This document shows positions 10,515 through 25,263 of a DNA stretch of 58,509 nucleotides, piece after piece. The position numbers and the translations under genes are program-made. Source of the DNA: Deltaproteobacteria bacterium (GTDB lineage Bacteria > Desulfobacterota > Dissulfuribacteria > Dissulfuribacterales > QOAL01); contig JALVJO010000154.1 of NCBI GenBank assembly GCA_027028245.1, positions 1-58,509 on the forward strand. The letters run 5' to 3'. The stretch's first letter is position 1, and the number at the start of each line of letters is the position of its first letter. Below the pieces are notes generated by a model. The model worked only from the letters and a program-made list of their open reading frames with translations. It searched no databases and was not told where the DNA came from.

Positions 10515-10736
10515 TTCTACTCCTGCAAGGTGTGGGGTTAGCGATCATCCAGTCAAGTTGATAATAAAACCAGTGAAAACTTTCAAGGCAATTTTGACTT
10601 GATTGAAAGCGTTTCAATTTCTCCTGGAATGTCCTGTTGGAATAATGTTTAATTAAGGCTGAATGTGCATGCTGAAGTGCTGTTTCCGGAAGGAAACTGT
10701 GCCGCACTTCAACAAACCAAGAGAGGTCGGTCCGCT
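10515..10736. promoter_or_regulatory. Divergent intergenic region with two GAAA/TTTC palindromes
   Basis: This 222-base region separates divergently transcribed purL (minus) and the phosphorylase gene (plus). It contains ATTGAAA-GCG-TTTCAAT at 10602-10618 and a smaller TGAAA-AC-TTTCA at 10574-10585. These resemble regulator operators, and one could control both directions. I cannot name the regulator, and I did not find a convincing pair of -35/-10 boxes. Confidence 0.35.
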
Positions 10737-12266
10737 TTGGAAAAACTCATTATAAAAAGGATTGCAATAGATACCTACAGGGAAAACGTTGCTTACATGA
10801 ACAGCGGCTGCGCTGTCTATCGTGCTGCCGGTTTCCAGGCGCTTTCGAAGATAAAGATCACTGCTGATCACCACATGATTCTTGCCGTATTGAACGTTGT
10901 GCATGACGAGTGCATAGTGTCTCCGGGAGAACTCGGGCTTTCCGAGCAGGCATTTTCGCAGCTGGGCCTTCCCGAAGGGACGGCTGTTTTGGTGGACCAT
11001 CCGGAACCGCCGATTTCCATGGATGCGGTACGCAGGAAGATTTCAGGCGGGGTGCTGGGCTACGATGATTTTGTCTCCATAACAAGGGATATAATAGAGA
11101 ACAGGTATTCAAAGATGGAGATGGCAGCCTTCCTGGTGGCCTGTGCCGAGACCGGCCTGGAACGGAAGGAGACCCTCTATTACACCAGGGCCATGGCAGA
11201 TTCAGGCCAGAAGCTTGACTGGCACGAGCCCATTGTGGCTGACAAGCACTGCATAGGAGGCATTCCTGGAAACCGTACTTCCATGCTCATAGTACCTATT
11301 GTTGCAGCCCACGGGATGCTTATTCCCAAGACATCAAGCCGGGCAATAACATCCCCTGCAGGTACGGCAGACACCATGGAGGTCCTTGCCGAGGTGAACC
11401 TGGAGCCCAAAAGGCTATATGAAATCGTGAGAAAGGAAAGAGGATGCCTGGCCTGGGGCGGAACCTCAAGGCTGGCACCTGTGGACGACATCCTCATCAC
11501 TGTGGAAAGGCCCCTTGGTATAGATGCCACAGGCCAGATGGTAGCCTCTATCCTTTCAAAGAAACTTGCCGCAGGGTCCACCCACCTGCTTCTTGATATT
11601 CCCCTGGGCCCTACTGCAAAGGTAAGGCATATGCAGCAGGCCCTCAGTCTCAGGAAGATCTTTGAATACGTGGGAGACAGGATCGGCATTCATCTCGAGG
11701 TCATGATCACAGACGGCCGCCAGCCAATAGGCAGCGGCGTGGGCCCGGTGCTGGAGGTAAGAGACGTGATGCAGGTCCTTGAGAACAGGCCTGAGGCACC
11801 CAAGGATCTAAGGCACAAGGCACTGAATCTTGCAGGAAGAATCCTGGAATTTGATCCTGATGTAAGAGGAGGGACCGGATACGTGGTTGCCAGGGACATC
11901 CTGGATTCCGGAAGGGCCCTTGCCAAGATGCAGTCCATAATAGAGGCCCAGGGAAAGAAGGCTTCGGTTCCAGAACCGGGCAAGCTGACATTTGACATTC
12001 GTGCCGATTCAGGCGGGGTGGTTTCATGCATTGACAATTACCAGATTAACAGGATAGCCAGGCTTGCCGGTGCGCCCCTTGATAAGGGAGCAGGGGTGGA
12101 TCTTTTCAAAAAGCTCGGCGACAAGGTGGAAAAGGGAGAATCTCTTTACCGGATACATGCCGAGTTCGAGTCTGATTTCAAGTTCTCTGTGAGACTTGCT
12201 GAGAGGAACAACGCTTACACCATAGGTTCCAGGGAAGACATCCCGCGGAATCCGGAGGAATTCTAA
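10737..12266 (+). CDS. AMP phosphorylase / thymidine phosphorylase family protein
   Basis: Nucleoside/nucleotide phosphorylase of the long, archaeal-type group (TIGR02645-like), about 509 residues from the proposed start. The pyrimidine-phosphorylase signature is clear ([19 protein letters not shown]), preceded by [17 protein letters not shown], the phosphate-binding segment. Archaeal AMP phosphorylase releases the base and ribose 1,5-bisphosphate from NMPs; bacterial members are often labelled thymidine phosphorylase without proof. The N-terminal domain (about 80 residues before DHPEPP) is present and characteristic of this long form. An open frame reaches back to an ATG at 10665, but family alignment favours a start near TTG 10737, preceded by GAGAGG ten bases upstream. 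It is followed, after a 265-base gap, by a PRPP synthetase. No RuBisCO or ribose-1,5-bisphosphate isomerase is in the window. Confidence 0.85.
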
Positions 12267-12531: not shown

Positions 12532-13416
12532 ATGGACATGCTTTTATATTTTGAGGAATACGGCAGGCCTTCCAGGGAGATTGCCCGGCAGATTTCTGCA
12601 AAGGCGCTGGAGGTAAAGGTCCATCATTTCCCTGATGGTGAAAGCCTGGTTCGTATCCCGGAAAGCCTTCCATCCGGGATCATTATGTGCAGGAGCCTGT
12701 GCAGGCCCAATGACAAGCTTGTGGAGCTCATGTTTGCAGCCAGGCAGGCCAGGCAGCTCGGCGCCGAAAAGATCACCCTTGTTGCTCCTTACCTTTGCTA
12801 CATGCGCCAGGACAAGGCATTTCATCCGGGAGAAGCAGTCAGTCAGAAGATAATCGGGGAATTTTTTTCAGGGCTTTTTGACTGCGTTGTTACAGTAGAC
12901 GCCCATCTTCACCGGGTATCGTCCCTGCAGGCCGTGATGCCTGATATCAAGGCAGTGAATCTTACTGCCGCAGGACCGGTGTCTGATTTCCTGGCATCCC
13001 AGAAGGACAGGCCCTTTCTCCTGGGACCCGACGAGGAGTCCCTCCAGTGGGTGAAAAGGACAGCTGAAAAGTGTTCCCTGGATTACGGGGTATGCAGGAA
13101 GATCCGCCGCGGCGACAGGGACGTGGAGGTAGAACTTCCCCTTATGAAGCAGAAATACCAAAGGGTTATGGTAATAGATGATATCCTGAGTACAGGAAAG
13201 ACCATGGCAGTGGCAGCAGGTCTTCTTAAAAAGGCAGGGGTGAAAAAGGTGGACTGCCTGGTCACACATCCGGTCTTTGCCCCTGGCGCCTGGGAGCTTC
13301 TAAGGAAAAGCGGGGTGGACGAGGTGATCAGCACCGATACCATACCGCATGAAACCAACAGGATTTCAATTGCACCGGTCATATCGGAATTTTTCAACCG
13401 GCAAGGCTGCCTTTAA
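12532..13416 (+). CDS. prs: Ribose-phosphate pyrophosphokinase, archaeal-like
   Basis: Makes PRPP from ribose 5-phosphate and ATP. It has 294 residues, slightly shorter than classical bacterial Prs (about 315). The ATP/metal segment VTVDAHLHR (near residue 120) and the PRPP-binding loop VIDDILSTGKTM (near residue 216) are intact. The DKAFHPGEAVS segment resembles the archaeal class rather than E. coli Prs. Its partner upstream is the AMP-phosphorylase-like gene, so the pair may recycle nucleotide sugars. Its TAA is followed directly by the GTG of the antiporter gene, so the two share a transcript. Whether this is the only PRPP synthetase of the cell cannot be told. Confidence 0.9.
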   Translation: MDMLLYFEEYGRPSREIARQISAKALEVKVHHFPDGESLVRIPESLPSGIIMCRSLCRPNDKLVELMFAARQARQLGAEKITLVAPYLCYMRQDKAFHPGEAVSQKIIGEFFSGLFDCVVTVDAHLHRVSSLQAVMPDIKAVNLTAAGPVSDFLASQKDRPFLLGPDEESLQWVKRTAEKCSLDYGVCRKIRRGDRDVEVELPLMKQKYQRVMVIDDILSTGKTMAVAAGLLKKAGVKKVDCLVTHPVFAPGAWELLRKSGVDEVISTDTIPHETNRISIAPVISEFFNRQGCL

Positions 13417-15742: not shown

Positions 15743-17332
15743 TCAGCGGGCCTTTCGAACAAGGCGCATTATGGCATAAAGTACCTCTTTGGCCTCCTGT
15801 AGACCCAACACCAATATGCCTGCAATGTATACCAAAACCCCTACCGTTATACTCAAAGACACCTGCATTAAAAGGCCCGCTGTGCTTTTTCCCATTTCAG
15901 ACCAGGAAGACGTGAAATAGACGGCAACGGCCATGACGGCCGATGCCGCTGTGATCTTAAGGAGTGCCGCAGCCAGCCTCTTCACAGGGTATCCCCCGGT
16001 CTTTCGGTAAAGGATCACTGCCAGAAAGAGGAAATTGAAGATGATGGTCACAGAAGTTGAAAGGGCTATAGCCCTGTGCTGAAACCTTTCCAGGGTGAAG
16101 AGGATGATGACTACATTGGCAGCCACGGTGAGAAAGCTTCCTATCACCGGCCACCTTGTATCATCCAGGGCGTAATACACAGGTACTATTATCTTTACTG
16201 CTGAATAGGCCATGAGGCCTACTGCGTAAAACTGCAGGGCCTGGGCCGTCATGACCGTGTCGAACTGTGTGAAATGGCCGTGTCTGAATATCAGGCCGAT
16301 TATGGGCTCTGCCAGCAGCCACAGCCCGGCAGCTGCAGGAAGCGTCAGGGCAAAGGCCAGGATCAGGGATGAGACGAGTGTTTCTCCAAGTTCCCTGGAT
16401 GCGCCCCTTGCCGCCTGTCTTGCAACCATGGGCAGAGTGGCCACTGAAAGGGCTACCCCGAAAAGACCTATTGGAAACTGCATGAGCCTGAAGGCATAAT
16501 TCAGCCAGGCCACGCTTCCCTCTGCACAGCGGGATGCAAAGTTGGTGTTCACAAAGATATTTATCTGGGTGGCTGAAAGACCGATTACTGCAGGCACTAT
16601 GAGTCTTCCCATCTTTCTTAGCCCCGGGTCCCTCAGGTCAAGAAATGGCCTTATCCTGAATCCCTCCTTTCTGACGCAGGGCAGCTGGACTGCAAGCTGC
16701 ATCCCACCTCCTGCAAGTGTGCCCACTGCCATGCCGTAGATGGCAGGATAGCCCATGGCCGGGATGACAAGGGCAAGTCCTCCTCCTATGAGGATGGAGC
16801 CCAGGTTGAAGCAGCTGGAGGCAAATGCCGGTATGAAAAAATATCCCCTGGTATTCAAAAGCCCCATGATGAGTGCTGACAGGGATATCAGAAGCAGGAA
16901 TGGGAACATGATCCTGGTAAGATCAGAGGAAAGGGCGATTTTCCCGGGAACCAGGGAAAATTCAGGCGCCATGAGCATTACCAGTTCCTTTGAAAAAAGG
17001 ATGCCGATTATGCAGATCAGGGAGATTATTATGGTGATGGCAGTCAGTACATTGTTGACCAGCCTGTGGGTTTCCCCGGGGTCTTTCTTTTCCTGGTATT
17101 CGGTAAAGACCGTTACAAAGGCGGAGCTCAGAGCACCCTCGGCGAATAGATCCCTGAGCAGGTTTGGTATCCTGAATGCCACCACAAAGGCATCCATGGC
17201 GGTTCCTGCACCGAAAAGGGTGGCCAGGACCTGTTCTCTTACAAGGCCGAGGAGCCTTGAAAGGAACACGGCAGCACTAACGGATTTGGCCGAGCCTGCT
17301 ATCCTTGATGCCGAGGATGTGGGAGGAGCCAT
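15743..17332 (-). CDS. murJ: Lipid II flippase MurJ
   Basis: Multi-pass inner-membrane flippase for the peptidoglycan precursor lipid II (MviN/MurJ, MOP superfamily). It has 529 residues and about 14 hydrophobic helices, the usual size. The conserved N-terminal stretch SRLLGLVREQVLATLFG and FRIPNLLRDLFAEGALSSAF are the strongest family signatures; the Arg residues there line the central cavity. It starts 15 bases after the stop of the CysK/CysRS fusion gene, so the two form an operon. It is the last gene, convergent with the DUF3135 gene. Confidence 0.94.
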   Translation of the reverse strand: MAPPTSSASRIAGSAKSVSAAVFLSRLLGLVREQVLATLFGAGTAMDAFVVAFRIPNLLRDLFAEGALSSAFVTVFTEYQEKKDPGETHRLVNNVLTAITIIISLICIIGILFSKELVMLMAPEFSLVPGKIALSSDLTRIMFPFLLLISLSALIMGLLNTRGYFFIPAFASSCFNLGSILIGGGLALVIPAMGYPAIYGMAVGTLAGGGMQLAVQLPCVRKEGFRIRPFLDLRDPGLRKMGRLIVPAVIGLSATQINIFVNTNFASRCAEGSVAWLNYAFRLMQFPIGLFGVALSVATLPMVARQAARGASRELGETLVSSLILAFALTLPAAAGLWLLAEPIIGLIFRHGHFTQFDTVMTAQALQFYAVGLMAYSAVKIIVPVYYALDDTRWPVIGSFLTVAANVVIILFTLERFQHRAIALSTSVTIIFNFLFLAVILYRKTGGYPVKRLAAALLKITAASAVMAVAVYFTSSWSEMGKSTAGLLMQVSLSITVGVLVYIAGILVLGLQEAKEVLYAIMRLVRKAR

Positions 17333-17347: not shown

Positions 17348-19720
17348 CTACTGGCCTGGCCTTGAAGCCCCAGGGGTGACAAATTTTATCCGGGCTCCTC
17401 GCGGTGTATCTATGATTTTTATGCCCAGGTCCAGGAGGTCTTTCCTGAGGCGGTCTGCGTCGCGGAAGCGCTTTTCATCCCGGGCCTTCTCCCGGTCTTC
17501 TATTAACTGCACGGCCTGGGGAGAAAGCTTCTTTATGGTGAGGCTGAAATCCAGGACCCCGAGTATGGAATCGAATTCCTTGAATGTCTTGATGACAGCA
17601 GCTGCATCTGCCTTGTTCAGGCGGCCTTCAGCAATCAGGGGGTTGATGTTTCTTATGAAGGCAAAGATTGCCCCAAAGGCAGCAGAGGTATTCAGGTCAT
17701 CAAGGATGGATGAGAAGAAGCTTCTTTCAAGTCTGCACAATGTCTTTTTTATCCGGCGGGTTGGTTCTTCTTCAGGCCTTAAATACAGGCATGTTGTAAT
17801 GTCTGATTTAAAGGCGTCGATCCTGACAAGACCTCGGCAGGCATCCTTCAGGGCCTTCATGGAGAAGGCAACCGGTTTTCTGTAATAGGATCTCAGCAGG
17901 AAGAAGCGAATCTGTCTGCCTGAAAAGCCTCTTCCGAGGAGGTCTTTTACTGTCACTACATTTTCGTTCCTGGGAGACATCTTTATGCCGTTAACCAGGA
18001 TGAGTTCGCAGTGCAGCCAGTATCTTGCCAGGGGTTTGCCAGTAAGTGCCCTGACTATTGCTATTTCATTTTCATGATGGGGGAAGACCAGGTTTGAGCC
18101 GCTGGTATGGATATCGAAGAAATCACCCAGGTATTTTATGGCCATGGCTGCGCATTCTATATGCCAGCCCGGGCGGGCCTGACCCCAGGGTGTGTCGAAT
18201 CCGATGCCCCTTTTGAGTTCATCAAGGTTCACTCTCTTGAAAAGCGTGAAGTCAAGGGGGCTGTCCTTTTCGTAATCGTCAAGGTCAACCGTGCGTCCTA
18301 TGTCTATGCCGTTGAGGTCTATCCTTGAGAATCTGCCGTATTCCGGAAGCTTGGAAACGTCGAAATAGACCGAGCTGTGGCGTTCGTACGCAAAGCCCTT
18401 TTCAATGAGCTTTTTCGTGGCTTCAAGCATCTCGGGCACGTGTTCGCTGGCCTTTGGATAATAGTCTGCCGGCAGACATTTAAGGGCTGACACGTCCTGG
18501 AAGAAGGATCTGGTATATTCTTCCGTGAGTTCCTGAAGGGGGCGGTTCAGCCGGATTGCAGCATTGATGGTCCGGTCGTCCATGTCAGTGATGTTCATGA
18601 CATGTGTGGTCTTGTAGCCCAGGTACTGAAGGGTGCGTTTCAGGAGATCCGCTGAGACCAGTCTTCGGGCCATGGCAAGGTCCATGTGCTCGCATGCCGT
18701 GGGGCCGCACGAATAGATACCGGCTCGTCCCGGCTGCAGAGGCTCGAATATCTCCTTCTTCCTGGTGGCAGTATTTGTAAACTTCAGTGTTTCCCCAGAG
18801 GAATCCTCCTGGTCCTCGGGTATGGAAAACAGGGCGGTGCTAAGATAACGTTCCCCTCCATCAGGCAGTATGGCAACAATGGTGCCGGATTTCATGACAG
18901 CGGCCTGCCGAAGGGCGGCAGCAACGGCTGCTCCTGAACTCATGCCGGCGAAGATCCCTTCTTCCCTGGCAAGCCGTCTTGCAGCCTCAAATGCCTCTTC
19001 ATCTGCGCAGTTGACTATTTCGCTGGGAATCTTCTTATCAAATATGCCGGGACGATAGGATTCCTTCATGTTTTTGAGGCCCTGGATGGCATGCCCCAGG
19101 AAAGGTTCTACCCCGATCACCCTGGTCCCTGGAGAAAGTTCCCTGAACCTCCTGACAAGACCCATGAGGGTCCCGGTGGTACCCATGGTGGAGATCACAA
19201 CATCCACATTGCCGCCAGTCTGTTCCCATATCTCCCCGGCAGTATAGTGATAATGGGTCTTCCAGTTGTCAGGATTATTGAACTGGTCTGTCAGGAAGTA
19301 CTTTTCAGGATGTTGCCTGAAGAGCTTGTAGACTGCCTCTATTGCCCCGTCTGTTCCGAAACGTGCCGGCGTCAGGAGTATTTCCGCGCCGTAGGCCCGC
19401 ATGATCTTTCTTCGTTCAAGGCTTGCCGCCTCGCTCATGGCGATAAGGCACCTGTATCCCTTTACGGCGCAGACCAGGGCCAGGCCGATGCCGGTATTTC
19501 CGCTGCTGGCCTCAAGGACTATCTTATCCTTGGTGAGTTCTCCGCGCCTTTCAGCAGATTCGATCATGTTCAGGGCGATTCGGTCCTTAATGGAGCCGCC
19601 CGGGTTGAAGGATTCCAGCTTTACAAGGATGCTTACGCCCTTGAAGGGATTAAGGCGCTTTAGAGGTACAAGGGGGGTGTTTCCAATGAGGTCCAGTATG
19701 TTATGAGGAAGATTTTTCAT
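17348..19720 (-). CDS. Cysteine synthase fused to cysteinyl-tRNA synthetase-like domain
   Basis: A 790-residue fusion. Residues 1-305 are a complete PLP-dependent O-acetylserine sulfhydrylase (CysK/CysM): Lys45 in NPGGSIKDR is the expected Schiff-base lysine, with SSGNTGIGLA, GTTGTLMGL and the SSGAAVAA phosphate loop all present. Residues 312-790 follow the whole length of CysRS: Zn ligand Cys338 (YSCGPTA), Cys523 (GWHIEC), and FPHHENE near 546-552. Both class I signatures are degenerate. The HIGH position reads DLAM (347-350), and KMSKS reads KMSPR (580-584). Catalysis of ordinary aminoacylation is therefore doubtful, although the fold and metal site are kept. Alternatives are a CysRS working in an unusual way or a paralogue with another acceptor. 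Leads a two-gene operon with murJ. Confidence 0.92.
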   Translation of the reverse strand: MKNLPHNILDLIGNTPLVPLKRLNPFKGVSILVKLESFNPGGSIKDRIALNMIESAERRGELTKDKIVLEASSGNTGIGLALVCAVKGYRCLIAMSEAASLERRKIMRAYGAEILLTPARFGTDGAIEAVYKLFRQHPEKYFLTDQFNNPDNWKTHYHYTAGEIWEQTGGNVDVVISTMGTTGTLMGLVRRFRELSPGTRVIGVEPFLGHAIQGLKNMKESYRPGIFDKKIPSEIVNCADEEAFEAARRLAREEGIFAGMSSGAAVAAALRQAAVMKSGTIVAILPDGGERYLSTALFSIPEDQEDSSGETLKFTNTATRKKEIFEPLQPGRAGIYSCGPTACEHMDLAMARRLVSADLLKRTLQYLGYKTTHVMNITDMDDRTINAAIRLNRPLQELTEEYTRSFFQDVSALKCLPADYYPKASEHVPEMLEATKKLIEKGFAYERHSSVYFDVSKLPEYGRFSRIDLNGIDIGRTVDLDDYEKDSPLDFTLFKRVNLDELKRGIGFDTPWGQARPGWHIECAAMAIKYLGDFFDIHTSGSNLVFPHHENEIAIVRALTGKPLARYWLHCELILVNGIKMSPRNENVVTVKDLLGRGFSGRQIRFFLLRSYYRKPVAFSMKALKDACRGLVRIDAFKSDITTCLYLRPEEEPTRRIKKTLCRLERSFFSSILDDLNTSAAFGAIFAFIRNINPLIAEGRLNKADAAAVIKTFKEFDSILGVLDFSLTIKKLSPQAVQLIEDREKARDEKRFRDADRLRKDLLDLGIKIIDTPRGARIKFVTPGASRPGQ

Positions 19721-20089: not shown

Positions 20090-22597
20090 ATGAAAAAGAA
20101 AGAAAAGAGGCCTCTTGGCCGGATATTTCAATATTTCAGAAAAGTACTTGATCTGAACAACCAGATACTTGAGGAAATTTCCAACGCAGAAAGGGTGCTG
20201 GGGGGCAGCTATCTTTTTGACAGTGCCTTTTTGGCAGGTTTTGTTACCAGGGTCTGTGAAACAACCAGGGAAGTCATATACAACCTGAACAGCCTCACCA
20301 GCGGCCGTTATATGGTTCTTTATGATAGGCTGGAACAGCTGCGCTGCACCCTGGAGGATATCATGTCCGGCGGAAGCGGGCCCTTGGGAGAACAGCTTAC
20401 AGTCTCCTATGATGAATTAAACCGGGACCTTGATGACATAGCAGGGGCCAAAAATGCCAATCTTGCAGATATTCATAACAATTTCCAGATAAAAATACCC
20501 CGGGGGTTTGCCATAACCGTCAAGGCCTACAGGTTGTTTTTAGATACCAACCAAATCATACCCAGGATAAAAGAACTTTACGATAGGAATCCTGATGCAG
20601 ACACTGTTAAGAATGAGGTGAAGGTCATCTTCAAGGATGCAGAGGTGCCCGGGGAACTGGCATCAGCAGTGCAAAGCGAGCTGGAGAGGCTCTTCGAAGA
20701 CCTTGATGGGATTCCTGCCCTTGCAGTCAGAAGCAGTGCTGTTGGAGAAGACACGGAAAGGAGTTTTGCAGGCCAGTTTCATACTGTTTTGAACGTAGCT
20801 CCTGAGGACTTGTTTGATGCCTACAAGGAAGTAATCATGGCCAGGTTTATGCCTGAAGTAATGCATTATCTCGGCCCTGACGTCGAACTGGACAGTCATC
20901 CCGTGGCTGCAGGCGTTCAGGAAATGATAGATGCAGAGGTTTCAGGTGTGGCCTACACCAGGGACCCAATCGGGGGCTGCAGCGATTGTCAGGTTATTGC
21001 AGCAGTGGAAGGGCTGGGTGAAAGGCTCGTATCTGGCAGCCGCAGCGGCGATCACTTCATGCTCAAGCGTTCCTTCCCTTTTCTTCCTGTTTCCAGCACC
21101 ATAACCAGCAAGCCTTCTGATTACGTGCTACCCGGGGGGAAAAGACCCCTTGACAGGAGTACCAGCAATATGAGGCGCGGTTCCTCCCTCCTGGATATCA
21201 AGCAGCTTCAAGCCATCTCCGAGACCGCCATGCTCTGTGAAAAGGCCTTCGGCACACCCCGGGACCTGGAATGGGCCTTTGACAAAGACGGCGACTTGGT
21301 GATGCTCCAGAACAGGCGTCTCGGCATTCAGGTTCCATCCCGGTCTTGTCAAAAGGATATTGAAAAGATTGTAGAGGACTTTCCTGTGATCCTTGACGGG
21401 CTGGGGCATACTGCCCAGCTGGGAGCGGCCGCCGGCAGGGTTGTTCACGTGGATCCGGACGGCGACCTGGACAATGTGCCCGTTGGTGCCATAGTTGTCT
21501 CCAGATATGCGCATCCTAAACTGAGCCGGGTACTGAGGAAGGCCGGGGCAATAATTACGGACATTGGGAGTTCCACCGGCCACCTGGCCACCATTGCCAG
21601 GGAATACAGGGTTCCGGCCATATTCGGAACAGAAAAGGCAACCTCCCTTTTGAAAGAAGGGATGGAAGTCACAGTGGATGCCGATGAGAGAAAGGTCTAT
21701 GAGGGAATAATAGAAGATCTGGTGGAGGTTGAGGCAGGTCAAGACTGGGAATACATGGAGGAGCCTGAAATAAAGACTCTTCGAAGGATTCTAAGTTATG
21801 TTGCCCCCCTATACATGCTGGATCCCGGCGCCCCGGATTTTGTGCCTGAAAAATGCAGGACTATCCACGATATCATCCATTTTTCCCACATAAAGGCCGT
21901 TGATTCCATCATTGAACAGTTTTCCTCTGTGAAGAACCTTAAGGGCGAAAGGGCCGTTGAGCTGAAGGCAGATCTTCCCATAAAGATCATGATTATAGAC
22001 ATAGGAGGCGGCATAGAGGCAGGTACGGACACCAGGCTTGTCGAGGTTTCCCAGATCAGGAGCAGGCCCATGACTGCCCTCTTGAAGGGTCTGCTGCGGC
22101 AGGAGGCCTGGGACAAGGAGCCAATGCCCTTTGGCCTGGGTGACCTGTTCTCCAGCATGACCCGTCCGGTGAGCATGCTGACCAATCCGCCTGAGTACGA
22201 GGGTCAGAACCTTGCAATAGTAGGCGAGGATTATATGAACCTGAGCCTGCTTCTGGGCTACCATTTCAATGTGATAGATTCATTTGTCAGCGAGGAACCG
22301 GATAAAAATTACATATATTTCCGCTTTGCCGGGGGTTTTGCAGAAGAATCCAAGCGGAAGAAAAGGGCGGAACTGATCAGGTGGATCCTGGAGACCCTGG
22401 CCTTCAAGACGGAAGTGAGAAAGGATGTAGTTATAGGAAAGCTCAAGGGGCTGGAAGATTATAACCTCATGCGGGTTCTCCAGCATATAGGAGAGCTTAT
22501 AGCCTTTACCAGGCAGCTGGATGTTCGCATGGCTGATGAAGAGGCTGTGGAAAGGTTTTACAGCGGCTTCTTGGATCTTTGCAGGGAGTGCAACTGA
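20090..22597 (+). CDS. PEP-synthase-like protein 1 (ATP-grasp, His swivel domain, unrecognised C-terminus)
   Basis: First of three paralogues (835 residues). Residues 1-115 are helical. An N-terminal pyruvate-phosphate-dikinase ATP-grasp domain follows (about 120-410) with AVRSSAVGEDTERSFAGQF near 212-230. The swivelling phosphohistidine domain spans about 440-540, with His498 in SSTGHLATIARE. In PEP synthase and PPDK a PEP/pyruvate TIM barrel would come next. Here the final 280 residues instead carry motifs shared only with the two paralogues: CRTIHDI (589-595), IDIGGG (636-641), RPMTALLKG and YHFNVID. ATP-dependent phosphotransfer through the histidine is expected from the family; the acceptor is not known. 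The ribosome site is weak. Paralogue 2 follows 17 bases after the stop. Confidence 0.82.
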   Translation: MKKKEKRPLGRIFQYFRKVLDLNNQILEEISNAERVLGGSYLFDSAFLAGFVTRVCETTREVIYNLNSLTSGRYMVLYDRLEQLRCTLEDIMSGGSGPLGEQLTVSYDELNRDLDDIAGAKNANLADIHNNFQIKIPRGFAITVKAYRLFLDTNQIIPRIKELYDRNPDADTVKNEVKVIFKDAEVPGELASAVQSELERLFEDLDGIPALAVRSSAVGEDTERSFAGQFHTVLNVAPEDLFDAYKEVIMARFMPEVMHYLGPDVELDSHPVAAGVQEMIDAEVSGVAYTRDPIGGCSDCQVIAAVEGLGERLVSGSRSGDHFMLKRSFPFLPVSSTITSKPSDYVLPGGKRPLDRSTSNMRRGSSLLDIKQLQAISETAMLCEKAFGTPRDLEWAFDKDGDLVMLQNRRLGIQVPSRSCQKDIEKIVEDFPVILDGLGHTAQLGAAAGRVVHVDPDGDLDNVPVGAIVVSRYAHPKLSRVLRKAGAIITDIGSSTGHLATIAREYRVPAIFGTEKATSLLKEGMEVTVDADERKVYEGIIEDLVEVEAGQDWEYMEEPEIKTLRRILSYVAPLYMLDPGAPDFVPEKCRTIHDIIHFSHIKAVDSIIEQFSSVKNLKGERAVELKADLPIKIMIIDIGGGIEAGTDTRLVEVSQIRSRPMTALLKGLLRQEAWDKEPMPFGLGDLFSSMTRPVSMLTNPPEYEGQNLAIVGEDYMNLSLLLGYHFNVIDSFVSEEPDKNYIYFRFAGGFAEESKRKKRAELIRWILETLAFKTEVRKDVVIGKLKGLEDYNLMRVLQHIGELIAFTRQLDVRMADEEAVERFYSGFLDLCRECN

Positions 22598-22614
22598 ATG
22601 GGGAGCAATTCTTA

Positions 22615-25263
22615 ATGTTGGACTGGCTGAAAAAACAGGTAGGACGTATCCAGGAAATGCGCCAGCAGAAGGCCAGGGAGCACCTGGAGGACCTTAAATG
22701 GCGCTACCATATATTCCGCTCTCTCCTGTATGAAAATACCAAGGCAGTGGAACTCATTACTGATATTGACCTCAAGTTCAGGGAGACCGATTTTTTCGGC
22801 CCGGGTATCCGCAACAAGATACATGAGCTCATAGATGTTACAGGGGAGCTGGTGGAAAAGCTGAACCAGCTCGACTATGATCGGCATGCCGGGCTTTTCA
22901 AGATCCACAAGAAGGTCAGCGAAAGGATCACGGAGCTGCTTAACAAGGTTCCGAGCTATAAGGATATCCCCTTTTGCGTATCCCTGGATGAAAAGCTTCC
23001 AAACTGCTATGCCTTTGCCGGAGGCAAGGCCTGTACCCTGGCTCGTCTCAGGGCCGAGGGCAAGTTTCATGTACCGGGAGGGTTTTCCATCCTTGTCAGC
23101 GCCTGCCGTTACTTCCTGGAGGAAAGTGGCCTTTCCATGAACATCCTCAAGAAGCTTCAGCCTGTCCTTTCCAGGGGGGAGGAACTTACAAAGGATCTGG
23201 AAGACGAGATCAGGAAAGAGGTAATGGCAGCCAGGCTGCCGGAGCAGCTGGAAAATGCATTGAGGCACATTTCTGCGGATTATTTCCAGAAGGGCAGGGG
23301 GCTTGCGGTCCGAAGCAGCGCCCTGAGCGAGGACGGCAGGCATCATTCCTTTGCCGGGCAGTTTTCTTCTGTCCTTAACGTGGTTTCCTTTGAAGGCCTG
23401 AAGGAGGCTGTAAAGGAGGTGATCGCCAGCAATTTCAATTCCAGGAGTCTTGCCTACAGGGTCGGTGCCGGTATGAACCCCCTGGATTTCAATATGGCGG
23501 TACTTTGTATCGAGATGATAGATGCTGACAAGGCAGGTGTCATCTTTTCTGTTGATCCAAACGACCCGGACCAGAAGACCATGCTCATAAGCGCCCTTTA
23601 CGGCATGGGGGAGATGGTGGTTTCCGGTGCTTCCATGGCTGACGTCTACAAGCCCTTCAGGGATACCGGAGGCCGGGAGCTCTTTGCCCAGCCGCCGGCT
23701 GTGGCGAAAAAGATAAAGAAGCTGGCCCTGGATCCTGAAGGAGGCCTCAGGGAGGAAGACGTAGAGGAGGACAGGCAGGAAAGACCGGTCCTTTCCCAGG
23801 AAGAAGTCAGGAAACTCGTCTCTGTCAGCCTCAAAATCGAAAAGATATTGGGAGGCCCCCAGGATATAGAATGGGCCATAGACAAAGACGGAACCGTCTG
23901 GATCCTTCAGGCCAGGCCTTTAATAATGGAAGGGCCTTCTCAGAAACGAAAATTTCGTACAGAGCACAGAAAGTCTCTTTTTAAGGAGAGTCTTATAACT
24001 TCCAGGGGTATTGTAACAGGCAGGGTCAAAAAGGTCAGGAGACGGCAGGATCTGGACGAGACCTTTGATGAACCCACTATACTTGTCATGCATCGCAGCC
24101 TTGTAGATGCTGCCAAGGTTATGAGCAGGGTCAGCGGTCTTCTTGTGGATTTCGGCAACCCGGCAGACCATCTTTCATGCGTGGCAAGGGAATACGGAAG
24201 ACCCATGCTGGTTGGGCTTGTTGATGCCATGGAAAGGCTTGAGGATGGGCAGTGGGTCACTGTTGACGGTGATCATGGCAGGGTCTTCATTGCAGAGGAA
24301 GAGGAGATAGAGGAGGCCCGGAAAGAGTTTCGAAAGAGGGCCGGGGAAAAAAAAGACCAGGAGCAGTCCGGGGAAAAGGACACGGTACTGGAACAGCTTA
24401 AGAACCTCACGGTAAAACTGAATCTCACGGATGCCTATGGGCCCACTTTTTCCATTATGGAATGCCGCTCCCTCCATGACATAGTCCGCTATGTGCACGA
24501 AAAGGCTGTCATGGCCTTTTTCAAGGCCGGGGATGAGCTTCTGGAAGAAACCTCCGGGGTAGTATACAAACTGGAAAGCGACGTGCCCTTTTTTCTGCAG
24601 ATTATAGACATGGGCGGCGGACTGGTTTCTCAGCCCAAGAAAAGGCGTTTCGTGACCCCAGAGGAGATAGCATGCCGGCCCTTTAAGGCCCTTTGGAAGG
24701 GTATTTCCACCCCGGGCCTCCGGTGGGCAGGCCCTCCGCCGGTAGTCGGCAATGTAAGCGCAGTGGTGGGCCGCTGGATGTCTGATGCCGGCAGCCAAAG
24801 ACCCCTTGGCATGCCCAATTATCTTATTATAGCCAGGGATTATCTGAATCTTAACGCCCGTATGGATTTTCATTTCACAATGGTGGACTCGGTGTGCGGT
24901 ATGGACCCGCGGGAAAACCATGTCAAATTCCGTTTCAAGGGCGGAGGAACCACGCTCAAGCAGCGCAACCGGCGGGCCCGGGCCATAGGTGAGATCCTGG
25001 AGCGGGCAGATTTTTTCACCGACGTGAAGGCCGACCTGGTGAATGCCACATTTGCATTTGCCCCTGCAGAGGTCATAGAGGAAAAGCTCGTGATAGTGGG
25101 CAGGCTGCTGGGCTTTACCAGGCTCATTGATGCTGCCATGTACAGTGATGAGACTCCTCACCTGGTGGCAGATGCCTTTTATGAAGGCGATTACGAATTG
25201 AAAAGGCTGCTGGAGATGGTCAAAAAGCAGCAGGAGCTCGAGAAAGAAAAGGCTCAGGCGTGA
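22615..25263 (+). CDS. PEP-synthase-like protein 2
   Basis: Second paralogue, 882 residues from the ATG at 22615, which has GGGGAG nine bases upstream; an in-frame TTG at 22579 would overlap the preceding gene. Same layout as protein 1: helical head (1-130), ATP-grasp with AVRSSALSEDGRHHSFAGQF near residue 234, swivelling His domain with His519 in ADHLSCVARE. A charged linker rich in Glu and Lys (about 558-595) joins the unrecognised C-terminal domain with CRSLHDI, IDMGGG, RPFKALWKG and FHFTMVD. Immediate neighbour of protein 1 and probably co-transcribed. Its end overlaps that of the convergent PPP phosphatase by ten bases. Confidence 0.8.
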   Translation: MLDWLKKQVGRIQEMRQQKAREHLEDLKWRYHIFRSLLYENTKAVELITDIDLKFRETDFFGPGIRNKIHELIDVTGELVEKLNQLDYDRHAGLFKIHKKVSERITELLNKVPSYKDIPFCVSLDEKLPNCYAFAGGKACTLARLRAEGKFHVPGGFSILVSACRYFLEESGLSMNILKKLQPVLSRGEELTKDLEDEIRKEVMAARLPEQLENALRHISADYFQKGRGLAVRSSALSEDGRHHSFAGQFSSVLNVVSFEGLKEAVKEVIASNFNSRSLAYRVGAGMNPLDFNMAVLCIEMIDADKAGVIFSVDPNDPDQKTMLISALYGMGEMVVSGASMADVYKPFRDTGGRELFAQPPAVAKKIKKLALDPEGGLREEDVEEDRQERPVLSQEEVRKLVSVSLKIEKILGGPQDIEWAIDKDGTVWILQARPLIMEGPSQKRKFRTEHRKSLFKESLITSRGIVTGRVKKVRRRQDLDETFDEPTILVMHRSLVDAAKVMSRVSGLLVDFGNPADHLSCVAREYGRPMLVGLVDAMERLEDGQWVTVDGDHGRVFIAEEEEIEEARKEFRKRAGEKKDQEQSGEKDTVLEQLKNLTVKLNLTDAYGPTFSIMECRSLHDIVRYVHEKAVMAFFKAGDELLEETSGVVYKLESDVPFFLQIIDMGGGLVSQPKKRRFVTPEEIACRPFKALWKGISTPGLRWAGPPPVVGNVSAVVGRWMSDAGSQRPLGMPNYLIIARDYLNLNARMDFHFTMVDSVCGMDPRENHVKFRFKGGGTTLKQRNRRARAIGEILERADFFTDVKADLVNATFAFAPAEVIEEKLVIVGRLLGFTRLIDAAMYSDETPHLVADAFYEGDYELKRLLEMVKKQQELEKEKAQA

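Follow-up and report, generated by a model that had tools for sequence, protein, structure and literature searches.

The question raised by this locus is what a protein might do that joins a cysteine synthase to a cysteinyl-tRNA synthetase (CysRS) in which both class I signature motifs are missing. The gene lies in a stretch of 58,509 nucleotides that was analysed as a whole (hereafter the window), and its preliminary description as a CysK-CysRS fusion with DLAM at the HIGH position and KMSPR at the KMSKS position was borne out by the open reading frame, by Pfam and by alignment with 73 standalone CysRS. We regard it as an even bet that the protein is a cysteine synthase carrying a C-terminal pseudo-CysRS, which binds uncharged tRNA-Cys and regulates or localises the synthase, and that it is not a ligase.

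Layout of the fusion and its cysteine synthase half

Pfam matches on the window protein comprise PALP (residues 9-287), tRNA-synt_1e (325-628), DALR_2 (673-723) and CysS_C (731-769), and the CysRS homologue is full length (312-778) and comprises the catalytic lobes, the DALR bundle and the anticodon domain (Table 1); the insertion at residues 442-513 we take to be the one called CP1. An AlphaFold2 model, calculated from an input alignment of 36 rows that held the window protein and related-locus proteins only, has a mean pLDDT of 88.4 and a pTM of 0.64, a value that leaves open the relative arrangement of the two halves. The CysK half of the model matches the O-acetylserine sulfhydrylase 2q3b (Z 38.5, rmsd 1.9, 286 residues aligned), several solved enzymes of this kind matching at Z about 38, and the CysRS half matches the E. 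coli CysRS-tRNA complex 1u0b_B (Z 49.1, rmsd 4.9, 444 residues aligned over 311-781).

Table 1. Coordinates of the fusion gene, its parts and associated genes (window positions, except where a locus is named)
Feature	Coordinates	Strand	Evidence
CysK-CysRS-like fusion, 790 aa	17348..19720	-	ORF, ATG start; Pfam and NCBIfam domains
Cysteine synthase half (CysM/CysK type), residues 1-299; PLP Lys45, SGNTG loop kept	18824..19720	-	PALP 1.8e-77; TIGR01136
Linker, residues 290-311, low model confidence	18788..18853	-	AlphaFold2 pLDDT <50 at 290-309
CysRS-like catalytic lobes, residues 312-624	17849..18787	-	tRNA-synt_1e 6.1e-91; model match to 1u0b_B
Zinc ligand position Cys338 (E. coli C28)	18707..18709	-	alignment
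HIGH position, DLAM, residues 347-350	18671..18682	-	alignment; H kept in 62/112 fusions
CP1 insertion, residues 442-513; fusion-only invariant residues, low dN/dS	18182..18397	-	
Zinc ligand position Cys523 (E. coli C209)	18152..18154	-	alignment
HHENE, zinc ligand positions His548 and Glu552 (E. coli H234, E238)	18065..18079	-	alignment
KMSKS position, KMSPR, residues 580-584	17969..17983	-	alignment; second K/R kept in 43/112 fusions
DALR helical bundle, residues 625-735	17516..17848	-	DALR_2 2e-07
Anticodon-binding domain, residues 736-778	17387..17515	-	CysS_C 1.5e-05, above cut-off
MurJ, next gene downstream, 15-bp gap	15743..17332	-	PF03023 1.4e-117
Third CysRS paralogue	L220 832-2094; L221 1827-3095; L222 1589-2860; L223 1538-2818; L224 1358-2785		

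The N-terminal half looks active, as had been supposed: the PALP fold, the PLP lysine (K45) and the SGNTG loop are all intact, and the lysine is invariant in 112 of 112 aligned fusions. The window protein scores 355.8 bits against the TIGR01136 (cysKM) cut-off of 344.15, and falls just under the cut-off of the cysM equivalog (TIGR01138). Among the other PALP proteins surveyed in the same genome, namely one TrpB, one TrpB-like protein and one weaker, unclassified match at C171, no second cysteine synthase was detected, and the fusion appears to be the cell's principal cysteine synthase. Counts made by hand over 60 relatives, this genome included, show that 47 carry the fusion (fragments included) and that 39 of these 47 have no other listed CysK-like match, compared to 4 of the 13 relatives without the fusion (Fisher p 0.0006); the remaining nine of the 13 have a standalone CysK-like match, and the four without one are only 66-88% complete. 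The fusion is not always the sole synthase, since all five f50 genomes, which have the most decayed CysRS half, carry both the fusion and a separate CysK. No serine acetyltransferase CysE scored over the cut-off in the genome of the window (best 93.5 bits, cut-off 210.65), so that O-phosphoserine is a possible activated serine substrate.

Distribution, canonical CysRS and gene neighbourhood

A match to the fusion at an E-value of 1e-115 or better was present in 156 of the 395 genomes sampled from the phylum, five f50 matches being confirmed as fusions, and the carriers named among the matches listed are recorded as Deltaproteobacteria, Desulfobacterales, Desulfobacteraceae, Desulfobulbus and Desulfocapsa. 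Matches ending before residue 769, among the rows listed, are in G027, G059, G339 and G155; the remainder of the fusion lies in another frame in G059, and G339 has its match where the contig starts. Of 49 genomes to which other loci belong, two contained the fusion, both of them recorded as Deltaproteobacteria or Thermodesulfobacteriota, three further hits above threshold being standalone CysRS. No fusion appeared in 148 genomes from the phylum of a Nitrospirae genome, a search that had no positive control and shows little, and no plasmid record covered 80% of the fusion.

A FastTree phylogeny that combines the CysRS halves of 112 fusions with 77 standalone CysRS resolves the fusion halves as monophyletic with a support of 100. 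This single clade fits one fusion event, which probably took place early in the phylum. Branch paths from the fusion ancestor measure 0.49 at the shortest, 1.31 to the window protein and 2.0 to 3.0 to the most decayed rows. The open-licence PMC papers searched yielded no account of a CysK-CysRS fusion, and the accessible portion of a 2022 review of synthetase paralogues lists only CysRS* and MshC for CysRS (PMC9437257).

The suggestion that the CysRS half may be a paralogue, and that a second, canonical cysS should be sought, proved well founded: a CysRS with CHIGH and KMSKS (G000:C97, 465 bits) is encoded at another place in this genome. Standalone CysRS are found in 79 of 80 fusion genomes (the nearly complete ones, plus G035), including all 16 single-contig genomes, the copy in G027 being a fragment. 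The one genome in which none was detected, G035 (L105; 97% complete, 90 contigs), has a fusion with HLGL and KMSRS; either its assembly is incomplete at this point or it offers a natural activity test. The window protein exceeds the cut-off of TIGR00435 (cysteine--tRNA ligase; 387.6 bits, cut-off 340), and annotation may consequently assign to genomes of the group an extra CysRS, which is probably incapable of charging tRNA.

Other CysRS-type proteins were also seen. Several fusion-bearing genomes encode a third paralogue in frames of 421-476 aa (L220-L224; Table 1), with a changed zinc site (WNIQD, YRHHDYN) and no tRNA gene beside it, which could be a ligase that works without tRNA, or a relative of CysRS*. 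A 742-aa frame (L226 1463-3688, G065:C1) runs from a standalone CysRS into a long C-terminal region that, by eye, is glycosyltransferase-like, and the same genome has two further CysRS-type matches.

In the window, MurJ is probably co-transcribed with the fusion, but only 3 of 69 loci have it close to the fusion. Across the neighbourhoods of these 69 loci there is no shared partner gene, and the recurrent neighbours look like housekeeping genes. No tRNA-Cys gene was found near 60 fusion loci, and thus no dedicated partner tRNA lies nearby; Rfam returned nothing at the gathering threshold on the window, and hence no T-box or other known element there. Neither the fusion loci nor the Rfam scan of the window therefore offer a conserved neighbour or RNA element in support of regulation. 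A 334-aa protein without a Pfam match (L167 5001-6002 and 11 other loci) adjoins the fusion in 12 of the 69 loci, nine times on the downstream and three times on the upstream side. Elsewhere in the window, an overlapping tandem pair (20090-22597 and 22579-25263; 835 and 894 aa) with PPDK_N and PEP-utilizer domains is phosphoenolpyruvate-synthase-like, and a nucleoside (AMP or pyrimidine) phosphorylase-like gene (10665-12266) is followed by a PRPP-synthetase-like gene (12532-13416), a pairing that suggests a nucleoside phosphate pathway.

Catalytic motifs, zinc site and anticodon-reading residues

Aligned with the 73 standalone CysRS, the window protein presents D347-L348-A349-M350 and K580-M581-S582-P583-R584 at the two signature positions, and lacks both the HIGH and the KMSKS signature of a functional CysRS. 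The C, C, H, E set of zinc ligands is complete (C338, C523, H548 and E552), at positions mapped by alignment to C28, C209, H234 and E238, presumably the zinc ligands of E. coli CysRS. The preliminary description was accurate regarding these zinc positions, but its claim that the rest of CysRS is preserved was too strong, as the window protein departs from standalone CysRS at positions that are fully or almost fully conserved there (Y343C, R477T, W494F, W508F, G515A, S524A, G540S, D543N and Q555I). W494, G515 and Q555, which all 73 standalone CysRS possess, are missing from all 112 fusions, including the 30 that are motif-complete, so that re-tooling of the CysRS half seems to be older than the motif loss in the window lineage. 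R477, W508, S524 and G540 are likewise missing from most of the 112, even where HIGH and KMSKS look passable.

The 112 aligned fusions come from those fetched loci with an open frame whose match to the window protein starts ahead of residue 20 and extends past residue 700; fusions that were identical to another, shorter or interrupted were left out, and a contig end truncates at least one row. DLAM and KMSPR turned out to be confined to the window genus and its neighbours rather than conserved family-wide, other fusions of the same order having HLGL and KMSRS and other families being far more eroded. State changes were counted on a tree of the 112 fusions inferred from the CysK half alone. The histidine of HIGH is kept in 62 fusions (at least 13 changes) and its glycine in 69, and the second K/R of KMSKS is kept in 43 (14 changes). 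Among the zinc positions, C28 is kept in 92 fusions, C209 in 97, H234 in all and E238 in 76 (nine changes), and the full set is intact in 73, the window protein included. With 2 to 16 state changes per catalytic or zinc site, the adenylation motifs have been lost many times independently among the fusions. All three of zinc ligands, HxG and KxS(K/R) are retained in 30 fusions, the zinc site alone in 26, of which the window protein is one, and none of the three in 25; furthermore, the zinc ligands are gone in whole families that retain the CysRS domain (L190-L197, L202-L206).

The anticodon domain has a different history. In the E. coli CysRS-tRNA complex, as reported, R427 and D436 bind G34, W432 stacks against it and R423 reaches it through water (PMC12684709). 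By alignment, the window residues R743, R747, F752, D756, R759 and D771 correspond to E. coli R423, R427, W432, D436, R439 and D451, the G34 contacts (R743, R747, F752, D756) among them. In the 112 fusions R423 is kept in 111, R427 in 108 with K in three more, the aromatic residue at 432 in 111, D436 in 111, R439 in 111 and D451 in 110, all other exceptions being gaps, and CysS_C is above its cut-off in all eight other fusions scanned, including those of L202 and L205. In the 13 most decayed rows, the sites invariant in standalone CysRS are kept at 5 of 5 anticodon, 8 of 12 CP1 and 17 of 51 active-site-lobe positions (Fisher p 0.007 and 0.05), and in the 25 rows lacking all three motifs at 5 of 5, 8 of 12 and 16 of 51, respectively; with small counts and shared ancestry, these retention p-values (0.005-0.05) are indicative only. 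This retention of G34-reading residues while the catalytic motifs decay makes binding of tRNA-Cys rather likely for the window protein. The anticodon residues could also be kept merely for the folding of a small domain, and the domain as a whole evolves about as fast as the DALR bundle in dN/dS comparisons.

To judge from these residues, the fusion is the mirror image of paralogues that no longer read the tRNA-Cys anticodon. For both MshC chains in the PDB the alignment stops at residue 333 (12-333 of 490), indicating that MshC has no anticodon domain, and the five in-phylum paralogues (L220-L224) keep HIGH and KMSKS and lack the domain, the two that were scanned giving no CysS_C match. CysRS* is also reported to be without it (PMC9437257).

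The CysRS half is under purifying selection, with dN/dS below 0.4 wherever finite in 18 close pairs, many values being undefined through saturation of dS. In 9 of the 15 pairs that give a finite value for CP1 (range 0 to 0.23), none of the other four of the five CysRS subregions is lower, and the DALR and KMSKS regions are relaxed, the KMSKS loop reaching 0.72 in f50. Nine residues are invariant in the fusions only: R353, G598 and, inside CP1, S450, D479, Y483, R496, L502, K503 and G505.

Candidate roles and comparison with known systems

In the reading that we favour, the N-terminal half would make cysteine with PLP, and the C-terminal half would derive from a standalone CysRS through the single, probably early fusion, after which the residues for ATP and cysteine activation would have been lost (DLAM and KMSPR in the window) or altered, with CP1 and the tRNA-Cys-reading residues of the anticodon domain retained. 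The CysRS half would bind tRNA-Cys without charging it, coupling the cysteine synthase to the tRNA-Cys pool: as charging falls, deacylated tRNA-Cys, a signal of cysteine shortage, would bind and change cysteine synthase activity. It is very probable that the window protein does not charge tRNA. That tRNA-Cys binding alters the activity of the synthase is argued by analogy and put forward with some reserve, and the sign of such regulation is a plausible proposal only. In its most far-reaching form, which we advance tentatively, tRNA-Cys would be a direct allosteric ligand whose charging state switches the final reaction of cysteine biosynthesis across much of the phylum, making the fusion a protein counterpart of the T-box riboswitch. 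If true, this would constitute a metabolic sensor that reads translation demand directly; we know of no metabolic enzyme with an activity set by its cognate tRNA. The family forms a graded series from motif-complete members such as L128 (HLGN/KMSRS type) to fully decayed ones of the L190 or L202 type, in which loss of catalysis and retention of tRNA reading can be tested side by side.

Alternatively, the CysRS half may act free of tRNA, as a scaffold holding an oligomer or as a sensor providing feedback through zinc-bound cysteine, much as HisZ acts on HisG. HisZ, a non-adenylating paralogue of HisRS, mediates, through HisG, the inhibition of histidine synthesis (PMC9437257), the zinc ligand set is intact in the 73 fusions counted above, and the fusion-only invariant residues of CP1 could form a contact surface. 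However, the loss of zinc ligands in whole families means that zinc-bound cysteine is not the common ligand, and the retention of the G34-reading residues is left unexplained, and we consider this alternative unlikely.

That the fusion is a divergent but working CysRS, receiving cysteine from the synthase and passing it onto tRNA-Cys, appears improbable. The 30 motif-complete fusions, the anticodon domain kept everywhere, the TIGR00435 score of the window protein and the failure to detect another CysRS in G035 are consistent with it, but both motifs are gone in the window protein, W494, G515 and Q555 are missing from every fusion, and 79 of 80 fusion genomes have a standalone CysRS. The idea, raised earlier, that new cysteine is channelled onto a tRNA or another acceptor is not supported, given the repeated loss of the adenylation motifs, accompanied in several families by that of the zinc site; channelling is possible for the 30 fusions with all motifs, which might still charge tRNA.

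Neutral decay of a useless appendage would account for the repeated, independent loss of catalytic motifs and for the relaxed DALR and KMSKS regions, but it is very hard to reconcile with an open frame of about 470 residues maintained in the sampled families, with the low dN/dS of CP1, and with the nine new invariant residues and the preserved anticodon residues. An MshC-like ligase joining cysteine to a small acceptor to form a thiol cofactor, as also considered earlier, has a precedent in MshC as a CysRS paralogue and in the resemblance of the model to 3c8z_B (Z 43.5, rmsd 2.1, 375 residues aligned), which is surpassed by that to CysRS, and is barely credible and was rejected, given a TIGR03447 score of 188.4 bits against a cut-off of 485.1, the presence of the anticodon domain, the loss in the window fusion of the motifs for the cysteine adenylation that MshC needs, and the lack of any recognised thiol-pathway gene among the fusion neighbours. 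Persulfide synthesis, ascribed in the literature to lysines of CysRS, was a further candidate activity considered for the CysRS half.

Compared to CysRS (TIGR00435; E. coli 1li5 and 1u0b), the fusion has the same lobes, CP1, DALR bundle and anticodon domain with equivalents of R423, R427, D436 and D451; in contrast to CysRS, it is without HIGH and KMSKS, has changed core invariants, is joined to a cysteine synthase and coexists with a canonical CysRS. It shares with CysM/CysK (TIGR01136/TIGR01138) the whole PALP domain, the PLP lysine and the SGNTG loop, and differs in a C-terminal extension of about 490 residues. MshC and CysRS* are, like the fusion, CysRS paralogues with new roles, but they keep catalysis and lack the anticodon domain, the reverse of the fusion.

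A synthetase fold without adenylation motifs that is joined to another enzyme, as in HisZ/Gcn2-type pseudo-synthetases, is what the sequence and the predicted structure of the window fusion show. The two systems are precedents for parts of the fusion, not its relatives. HisZ is a synthetase paralogue that lacks its chemistry and is attached to an enzyme making the same amino acid; however, it is class II and a separate subunit, in contrast with the window fusion, which is class I, covalently fused and retains the tRNA-reading residues. Gcn2 is reported to have a HisRS-like domain that binds uncharged tRNA (PMC4335047), and thus offers a synthetase-like domain sensing uncharged tRNA within a larger enzyme, the property that we propose by analogy for the fusion. 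Gcn2 is a eukaryotic kinase, whereas in the fusion the effector would be an enzyme of cognate amino acid metabolism.
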